DNA from: Oscillospiraceae bacterium
GTDB taxonomy: Bacteria; Bacillota; Clostridia; Oscillospirales; Acutalibacteraceae
Assembly: GCA_015065545.1 (NCBI GenBank)
Contig: SVQA01000002.1
Location: 175,979 to 239,978 of the forward strand
Length of the DNA: 64,000 bases
Reading direction: 5' to 3'
Of the stretch, positions 47,660 through 48,919 are shown in pieces. Numbering within the stretch: position 1 is the first letter of the stretch; every line of letters begins with the position of its first letter. The notes below the pieces were generated by a model. It made no database searches. It saw nothing but the letters and a program-made list of their open reading frames with translations, and had not been told where the DNA came from. The translations under genes and the position numbers were made by a program.

Positions 47660-48919
47660 ATGAAAAAGAACGCAAAGAAGGTTCTGAGTATTTCCTTGAC
47701 TCTTTGCATCATGCTGACAATGCTTGTGGTATCTATGATGAATGTTTTTGCAATGCAGATTTTTGTAAAAACACTCGACGGAAGAACCATTACTCTGGAG
47801 GTTGAGCCTAACGACTCAATTGATGCCATTAAAGCAAAGATTCAGGAGAAAGAGGGTATCCGCCCCGAGCAGCAGCGTCTGATTTTTGCAAGCAAAGAGC
47901 TTGAAGAGGGCAAAACTCTCAGCGATTACAACATTCAGAAAGAGTCAACTCTGCATCTCGTTCTTAAAGTCAGAGGAGTTGGTGAGCTTCATGGATGCAC
48001 AATAAGCCTCGGCGGAAATATTGCGGTTAATTTCCATATGTTGCTTTCGGCTGACTCCAAAGCCGATGAAACTACAAAGATGGTGTTCACAGTTCCCGAT
48101 GCAGGTTCAAGCTACAAGGTAGAGGTACCCCTCAGCCAGGCGACTGTTACTTCCAAAGGATACTACGTGTTCCCCTGCGAGGTTGCAGCAAAAGAGATGA
48201 CCTCTGTTATCAAGGCTCAGCTTGTTACAAGCAGCGGTGAAAGCGATGTTTATGAATATACCGTTAAGGAGTATGCAGAGTATATCCTCAAAGAGGCTAA
48301 AAATGCAGAGAATTCTTATGCAGGCGGTATCGTAGGCGATGCTTCAGGCGAAACAATATACAATTCTAATAACTCAGGCACCGTTACATCTACAAATGAG
48401 TACATAAGGGCTAAGTATCTTGTTATGGCAATGCTTAACTACGGTGCCAACGCACAGCTTTACTTTGGTAACAATACCGATAACCTTGCAAATGATACAG
48501 AGTATATGACAGATGCTGACAGGATTTTTATGGATAACATTGTTCTCAGCGATTATGAATTTACTCTCGCAGGCAGTGAAGAGGGTGTAGAGTATTATGG
48601 TACATCACTTTCGCTGAAGTCTGAAACTGCCATCAAGCATTACTTTACGGTAAGCGAAGGAGTGGATGTCAAAGCTCTGAATGTTACTGTAGACGGCGAA
48701 GCTGCAGAGCTTGTGAAAAGCGGAGATTACTACATGCTGAAGATTGATGATATTCCGGCACAGAATCTGGATGACAGCTTTAACGCTCAGGTAGGCGGAA
48801 TCACTCTCGAATATAGTGCTTTCAGCTATGGTAACACAGCATTGGGTACAAACAAGGATACCCTGAAAAACTTGGTCAGAGCAATGTATGTTTACAATAT
48901 GGAAGCAAATGTTTACTGA
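47660..48919 (+). CDS. Secreted ubiquitin-domain protein
   Basis: 419 residues. Residues 1-31 are a signal peptide ending NVFA; residues 32-107 are ubiquitin, starting MQIFVKTL and ending LHLVLKVRGV. By hand alignment 59 of 76 positions equal human ubiquitin. Lys 6, 27, 29, 33, 48 and 63 are kept (Lys 11 is Arg), as are Leu 8, Ile 44, His 68 and Val 70 of the binding patch. The tail has Val at position 76, not Gly, and runs on, so it is not a free conjugatable ubiquitin as encoded. Cleavage after VFA would expose ubiquitin Met1. Residues about 108-419 form a domain shared with the C-terminus of the 59673 protein (GNIAVNFHM, VKEYAEYIL, MLNYGANAQ, YYGTSLSLKSE). AAAAGGAGG RBS. A 43-codon gene follows at once. 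Confidence 0.93.
   Translation: MKKNAKKVLSISLTLCIMLTMLVVSMMNVFAMQIFVKTLDGRTITLEVEPNDSIDAIKAKIQEKEGIRPEQQRLIFASKELEEGKTLSDYNIQKESTLHLVLKVRGVGELHGCTISLGGNIAVNFHMLLSADSKADETTKMVFTVPDAGSSYKVEVPLSQATVTSKGYYVFPCEVAAKEMTSVIKAQLVTSSGESDVYEYTVKEYAEYILKEAKNAENSYAGGIVGDASGETIYNSNNSGTVTSTNEYIRAKYLVMAMLNYGANAQLYFGNNTDNLANDTEYMTDADRIFMDNIVLSDYEFTLAGSEEGVEYYGTSLSLKSETAIKHYFTVSEGVDVKALNVTVDGEAAELVKSGDYYMLKIDDIPAQNLDDSFNAQVGGITLEYSAFSYGNTALGTNKDTLKNLVRAMYVYNMEANVY

Follow-up and report, generated by a model that had tools for sequence, protein, structure and literature searches.

Results

A ubiquitin fusion with a predicted export signal lies between murF and tatD

We analyzed a 64,000-nucleotide stretch of an Oscillospiraceae genome, referred to here as the window. 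On its forward strand, an open reading frame (ORF) at 47660-48919 starts with ATG and encodes a protein of 419 amino acids, as the initial annotation had described. The gene lies in a cassette flanked by murF and a tatD-like gene (Table 1). By eye, the N terminus has the features of a signal peptide, with a charged start, a hydrophobic stretch, and small residues ahead of the first methionine of ubiquitin. Residues 32-107 match the ubiquitin family PF00240 (whole-protein E value 1e-27; score 96.1 bits, cut-off 25.4), confirming the earlier description of an exported-type protein that carries a near-complete ubiquitin. Signal peptidase cleavage at VFA/M is predicted to expose a native ubiquitin Met1, in agreement with what was first proposed.

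Table 1. Features of the fusion gene and its surroundings, in window positions
Feature	Position	Strand	Basis
murF, left flank of cassette	46026..47393	+	Mur ligase domains
GGAGG ribosome-binding site	47647..47651	+	sequence; 8 bases 5' of ATG
Predicted signal peptide, residues 1-31, end VFA	47660..47752	+	by eye; predicted helix 2-26
Ubiquitin domain, residues 32-107 (ubiquitin numbering 1-76)	47753..47980	+	PF00240, identity, model
C-terminal module, residues 109-419, two Ig/FN3-like beta halves with helices	47984..48916	+	relatives, model
GLUG-like insert between module halves, residues 218-243	48311..48388	+	weak PF07581, low pLDDT
43-codon ORF just downstream of fusion	48938..49069	+	family MKKxYExAE..F..DVIxASG..DETEIL
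Terminator-like inverted repeat between cassette and tatD	49080..49135	.	sequence
tatD-like hydrolase, right flank of cassette	49134..49910	-	PF01026

By alignment, the domain is identical to human ubiquitin at 59 of 76 positions, the number previously obtained by hand. Lysines 6, 27, 29, 33, 48, and 63 are retained and position 11 is arginine; Leu8, Ile44, His68, and Val70, the hydrophobic patch, are also in place, so that both of these details were read correctly. Substitutions include Pro37 to Arg, Gly47 to Ser, and Arg72 to Lys. The domain ends in Gly75-Val76 and the chain continues into the C-terminal module. Since residue 76 is valine and the chain runs on, the protein cannot be conjugated as encoded, which upholds another of the original claims.

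An AlphaFold model of the 419-residue protein had a mean pLDDT of 84.9. Foldseek superposed its ubiquitin part on Entamoeba histolytica ubiquitin (EhUb, PDB 4gsw) with 0.6 Å over 73 columns, revealing the ubiquitin beta-grasp fold. Profile, model, and structure search thus identify the domain as a true ubiquitin and not another beta-grasp protein.

The C-terminal module was modeled with a pLDDT of 90.3. It has no Pfam family of its own; a GLUG match (PF07581) was below threshold (E 0.019) and falls on an insert that is mostly predicted to be disordered (pLDDT <50 at 220-243) and is missing from the own-genome paralogues compared. Searches at E<=0.001 found 392 relatives of the module, and among the matches listed it ended at most 30 residues from the protein end in all 103 relatives scanned. 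The window protein gave no Pfam dockerin match at E up to 1. A role in anti-phage defense was rejected, as no PADLOC model matched the protein at E 0.01.

A genome from goat cecum, Ruminococcus sp. RGIG1720 (L001), carries an orthologue that is 74% identical, at the same locus. The order of genes is that of the window, namely a gene for a macrophage migration inhibitory factor (MIF)-like protein, UPF0047, murF, the ubiquitin fusion, the small ORF, tatD, and metG, with one additional gene ahead of tatD. We considered whether the gene after the L001 cassette encodes a dockerin protein and rejected this, as it had no Pfam match. A third genome, G1194 of the window's genus, carries the same locus. 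In the near congeners G020 and G010, murF and tatD are convergent, with 62 and 50 bases between their stop codons, and neither genome has a PF00240 match. This empty site indicates that the cassette was inserted, or was lost in these congeners, as a unit. There were no convincing repeats around the cassette, so a mobile-element scar was rejected. Viral carriage was likewise discarded, as a whole-protein scan of viral contigs returned one pattern match and no relative.

The ubiquitin domain resembles that of Entamoeba

Several comparisons placed the window ubiquitin nearest to that of Entamoeba. It is identical to EhUb at 67 of 76 positions. With Foldseek, 4gsw showed 90% identity over 73 columns, and the other listed single-ubiquitin chains were mostly at 76-79%. 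When sequences of solved structures were searched, 4gsw scored 134.9 bits and the next single-ubiquitin chain at most 123.8; for the domain of a relative, P0082, the scores were 149.8 and 137.3 bits. Over residues 1-72, the window domain matches EhUb at 65 of 72 positions, and the best of 233 other ubiquitin units, drawn from outside the bacterial fusions and many of them unlabelled, matches it at 59. EhUb and human ubiquitin differ at eight positions within 1-72, and the window domain carries the Entamoeba residue at each of them; no unit among the 233 shares more than four.

We built a tree of 65 ubiquitins (73 columns), in which EhUb grouped with 19 bacterial rows in one clade (starred; 100/99); in a reduced tree of 45 rows the support for the EhUb clade was 95/93. 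Because the 233 units included no further sequence of the Entamoeba group, we call the donor Entamoeba-like. Taken together, these comparisons make a gut amoeba of this kind, and not an animal, the likely donor of the window ubiquitin. With 67 residues, the eight signature residues, and the fold in common, the window domain still differs from 4gsw in that it is part of a bacterial protein with an export signal, lacks Gly76, and occurs in a genome with no match to a ubiquitin-conjugating enzyme (E2). One relative with the same C-terminal module, P0128, has lost Leu8, shares one of the eight signature residues, and is placed apart from the Entamoeba clade.

Entamoeba bovis has been reported from farm and wild ruminants (PMC9226911), colonic bacteria are described as the food of E. 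histolytica (PMC8092309), and amoebae have been discussed as sites of gene transfer (PMC11323580).

Ubiquitins of related bacteria have more than one source

A second group of bacterial domains had other neighbors. In the 65-ubiquitin tree, L031, L033, and L055 clustered with the metagenomic units P0257 and P0274 (100/99), whose sequence we take to be of trichomonad type; P0257 is an unlabelled metagenome protein. A tree with a single bacterial clade was rejected (lnL 89 lower, p-AU 1.9e-34). It was rejected again (p 1.6e-5) in the 45-row tree, from which the long or loose rows P0128, L036, L055, L010, L054, and L030 had been removed. In this smaller tree, uniting the Entamoeba-type rows with L031 and L033 was also rejected (p 4.9e-4), and uniting them with the generic type, L021-L023, was not (p 0.095). 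Both trees have 72-73 columns and most of their forks are weak; P0144 and P0207 are in neither. These rejections call for two or more protist-type sources, and other ubiquitins of related bacteria likely came from other protists.

Ubiquitin is joined to several partner modules in gut Clostridia

To gauge how widespread such proteins are, we searched related genomes with PF00240. Matches were found in 33 of 161 genomes of the window's genus (13 of 81 among those of good quality), in seven of 59 mixed relatives (all seven within the genus), and in 20 of 398 genomes of the family, from 17 of 135 genera, with 19 of these genomes over the cut-off. The order gave five of 394 and the phylum five of 398, three of them weak; these samples overlap and the window's own genome is counted in each. 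None of 14 control genomes had a match. Among the best 120 of the 392 relatives of the C-terminal module, the top 17, the window included, all carried ubiquitin, as did P0144 and P0207. One relative, P0065, is already named automatically as "ubiquitin family protein [Ruminococcus sp.]" in its public record.

We read the layout of 29 ubiquitin ORFs, of which 14 had a recognizable surface module. The C-terminal module follows ubiquitin in L020 (the window), L001, and L094; dockerin accompanies it in L021, L022, L091, L092, and L093; and S-layer homology (SLH) domains occur in L105, L106, and L107. By motif, sorting signals (SPQTG, LPQTG, and SPKTG) lie at most 38 residues from the end of L099, L103, and L108. 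Three of the other 15 (L097, L098, and L100) are cut by contig ends. The count covers neither the G151 genes and the genus loci from the 161-genome search nor the weak or partial matches of G380, G091, G157, G063, G829, G867, and G1028 and the second match of G749. Six further ORFs of the genus (L135, L136, L138, L139, L142, and L143), picked with a home-made profile, are all dockerin proteins by Pfam; a stretch of the window at 6754-8103 is part of that profile and itself has no Pfam dockerin match. Pfam dockerin matches over the cut-off were found in L021, L022, L091, and L093, and also in L092 and the six picked ORFs. Genomes of the genus are rich in dockerins: all seven that were checked have 23 to 56 matches, and the window's own has 53.

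Of 39 genome rows whose domain begins with ubiquitin Met1, 24 have alanine just ahead of it, in the manner of a signal-peptidase site, and the other 15 have glycine there, after a short linker. In a smaller set, compiled before the genus search, alanine was found in 20 of 23. The 39 rows leave out L149, which is the same locus as L001. The observation is larger than first noted and concerns a family of ubiquitins in gut Clostridia, predicted to be exported and with probable protist origins. A partial literature search that found the papers on BfUbb, the exported ubiquitin of Bacteroides fragilis, found no report of ubiquitin fusions in Clostridia.

Other forms of the domain were also seen. Divergent ubiquitin-like domains lie within long proteins (L093, L097, L098, L100, and L151-L157), several of which have InlB-type repeats; L093 has two such domains in one protein. 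In L026, from genome G021, the ubiquitin frame stops after about 42 domain residues and is apparently decayed or cut. At 6497-8003 of L111 (genome G151), four small genes in tandem adjoin a leuS-like gene and have a double-glycine leader (ALSEEELELVIGG), presumably of the kind known from class II bacteriocins.

The ubiquitin core is conserved and the tail has decayed

To compare selection on the ubiquitin and on its partners, we estimated dN/dS by counting. Between the window and L001, dN/dS was 0.08 in ubiquitin residues 1-72 and 0.18 in the C-terminal part. For four other pairs the ubiquitin values were 0.03, 0.07, 0.07, and 0, and the values after ubiquitin were 0.31, 0.32, 0.27, and 0.26. 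The ratios are rough, since dS is above 1 for two pairs in the ubiquitin part and for three in the partner part, one pair is nearly unchanged, and one consists of two genes of the same genome (L095 and L096). Over the eight codons of tail and linker dN/dS was 5.5, with too few sites to claim positive selection.

We next counted mismatches to EhUb in 18 Entamoeba-type rows, using site lists that we assume to define the Ile44 face, the core, and other exposed positions. The core averaged 0.82 mismatches per site, and the means rose to 2.72 at other exposed sites and 3.89 on the Ile44 face, so that the face was no better kept than other exposed sites (P 0.83). The tail, residues 73-76, averaged 11.0 mismatches per site compared to 1.9 in 1-72; Gly76 was retained in two of the 18 rows and Gly75 in 10. 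In 22 distinct generic-type rows, a mixed set that is not a proven clade and in which many rows come from dockerin proteins, the values were 1.11 for the Ile44 face, 2.88 for other exposed sites, 1.35 for the core, and 9.75 for the tail (face versus other exposed sites, P 0.045, uncorrected). The idea that selection guards the Ile44 face was therefore not borne out in the window's lineage and found weak support among the generic-type rows. In both sets, this pattern indicates that the fold is maintained and the tail is unconstrained; the face is held in the generic set and not specially in the window's. Purifying selection is stronger on the ubiquitin core (1-72) than on the partner domains, and the diGly tail has decayed.

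We also searched seven genomes for E2 enzymes (PF00179). There was no match in G000, the window's own genome, which is about 91% complete, or in five others, and G017 had one match below threshold (19.7 bits against 27). With no E2 over the cut-off in the seven genomes, ubiquitin conjugation within the bacterium was rejected.

Comparison with known ubiquitins outside cells

To our knowledge, true ubiquitin is held to be eukaryotic, with BfUbb as the noted bacterial exception. BfUbb reportedly targets an envelope peptidyl-prolyl isomerase, according to a follow-up study. As described for BfUbb (gene ubb), the two proteins share an origin in a gut bacterium, a signal peptide that gives way to a mature start at ubiquitin Met1, the absence of a terminal diGly, and horizontal origin (PMC3352274, PMC5705921). 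BfUbb is, however, a free domain that matches human ubiquitin at 48 of 76 positions and is nearest to viral ubiquitins (PMC3352274, PMC5705921), whereas the window protein has a 311-residue C-terminal module, is nearest to Entamoeba ubiquitin, and is 50% identical to the BfUbb structure 8hm2 over 74 residues. The impression that the fusion is unlike BfUbb was thus well founded. B. fragilis has been called "one of a few bacteria" to carry a ubiquitin of this sort (PMC5705921).

Ubiquitin-extension effectors of Globodera likewise consist of a signal peptide, ubiquitin, and a C-terminal extension, but theirs is a 12-residue extension that is cut off in the plant (PMC5705921), and the window protein has its 311-residue module and no diGly. 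Monomeric ubiquitin also occurs outside mammalian cells, with reported effects through receptors (PMC10892293); it is a host protein with an intact tail, whereas the window domain is bacterial.

Exported bacterial ubiquitin is itself known from BfUbb, and here ubiquitin looks like an extracellular module that has become established in a family of gut bacteria. It comes in several architectures, has more than one source of protist type, and is under selection in a part that conjugation does not need. It offers instances in which genes probably passed from protists to bacteria in the herbivore gut and a supply of natural ubiquitin variants freed from the constraint of conjugation, and it would make the use of captured ubiquitin by gut bacteria, in dealing with grazing protists, the host, or each other, directly testable.

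Possible roles of the exported ubiquitin

We favor a model in which a protist ubiquitin coding sequence was captured behind a signal peptide, as the signature residues, the tree, and the empty site suggest. From its sequence, the protein would be exported and cleaved just ahead of ubiquitin Met1. The C-terminal module may then hold it at the surface, given the module's C-terminal place in proteins with exported-type repeats and the dockerin, S-layer homology, or sorting-signal modules found behind ubiquitin in relatives. Residue 76 and the continuing chain rule out conjugation, and purifying selection on 1-72 together with tail decay points to non-covalent recognition of the folded ubiquitin, the putative partner being a grazing protist or an animal host. 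Because conjugation is excluded and selection acts on a folded ubiquitin that is predicted to lie outside the cell, we interpret it as a domain shown to eukaryotes for recognition. We put somewhat short of an even chance on the proposal that an Entamoeba-like capture became an exported, surface-held, non-conjugable ubiquitin that would act as a binding mimic for the ubiquitin-recognizing proteins of gut eukaryotes. If true, bacteria could show a eukaryotic recognition protein outside their cells.

Some observations weigh against this mimicry. The Ile44 face, which is the usual recognition face, is not specially kept in the window's lineage, and P0128 has diverged despite having the same C-terminal module. 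Moreover, extracellular or phagosomal ubiquitin meets cytosolic ubiquitin receptors only after a breach. As leads only, ubiquitin and the ubiquitin-binding protein EhVps23 are reported to co-localize during phagocytosis in E. histolytica (PMC8588831), and the effects reported for extracellular ubiquitin on mammalian cells are disputed (PMC10892293). A wider version of the proposal, that gut Clostridia repeatedly captured protist ubiquitins, from at least one Entamoeba-like amoeba and one other protist, and wear them on the surface or on dockerin complexes as ecto-ubiquitin decoys toward grazers or hosts, is offered more tentatively.

One alternative is that ubiquitin is simply a cap or spacer, a fast-folding, protease-resistant N-terminal module that aids the export, folding, or stability of the C-terminal part and has no ubiquitin-specific partner. 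The flat conservation of the Ile44 face in the window's lineage, where core sites are the most conserved (0.82 mismatches per site), keeps this plain structural reading alive. It would also fit the many unrelated partners to which ubiquitin is joined and the divergent ubiquitin-like domains within long InlB-repeat proteins of the same genus. However, the dN/dS of 0-0.08 over 1-72 is below that of the partners supposedly served, more than one capture of a true eukaryotic ubiquitin would be odd if any stable fold sufficed, and conservation of the Ile44 face does show up among the generic-type rows. We consider such a structural role unlikely.

Antagonism between bacteria is a serious rival, given the precedent of BfUbb. 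The exported ubiquitin would bind a protein of related strains and inhibit them, as BfUbb, which is exported, mature from Met1, and devoid of the terminal glycine, inhibits other B. fragilis strains (PMC5705921; PMC3352274). The patchy presence in the genus (33 of 161) is in keeping with such a factor, as are the four tandem double-glycine-leader genes of G151, three of which match PF00240, in a genome that also has a C39 peptidase gene (one match, elsewhere in the genome). Yet surface-tethering modules are unexpected for a diffusible toxin, the domain is near protist ubiquitin and under purifying rather than diversifying selection, identity to BfUbb is 50%, and the window genome has no C39 peptidase match. 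No immunity gene was recognized, though BfUbb is thought to need none (PMC5705921). On balance, an antibacterial function seems to us less probable than a structural one.

An assembly chimera or eukaryotic contamination is wholly improbable and was rejected, as nothing was found in its favor: the protein's cluster comprises 20 contigs of up to 270 kb, at least 16 further proteins have both ubiquitin and the C-terminal module, L001 has the same locus and neighbors, and the composition is bacterial, with GC contents of 0.44 (ubiquitin part), 0.43 (C-terminal part), and 0.42 (window). The initial annotation had likewise argued against contamination.

Other features of the locus

The 43-codon ORF downstream of the fusion is conserved in L001 and belongs to a family of about 40-50 residues (MKKxYExAE..F..DVIxASG..) found directly 3' of genes for the C-terminal module. 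In the window's own genome, four of six matches to the small ORF lie directly 3' of a module gene; two of the six are weak (E 0.15 and 0.24), one of them among the four. Of 20 module ORFs in L001-L019, 10 are followed by the small ORF and three lack the downstream room for it, and in 256 kb, 10 of 12 peptide matches lie downstream of the module. Two members had no Pfam or NCBIfam match. At 2573-3370 of L016, the C-terminal module and a downstream small ORF occur on a contig labelled Alistipes, which reflects either transfer or misbinning.

Two genes upstream of murF, at window positions 45242-45583, lies the MIF homologue (PF01187, E 8.5e-9), which is also present in L001. An exact 21-base palindrome, CCCTCCTTTACACAAGGAGGG, occurs three times in the window, at 4846-4866, 8220-8240, and 47432-47452, where none would be expected.
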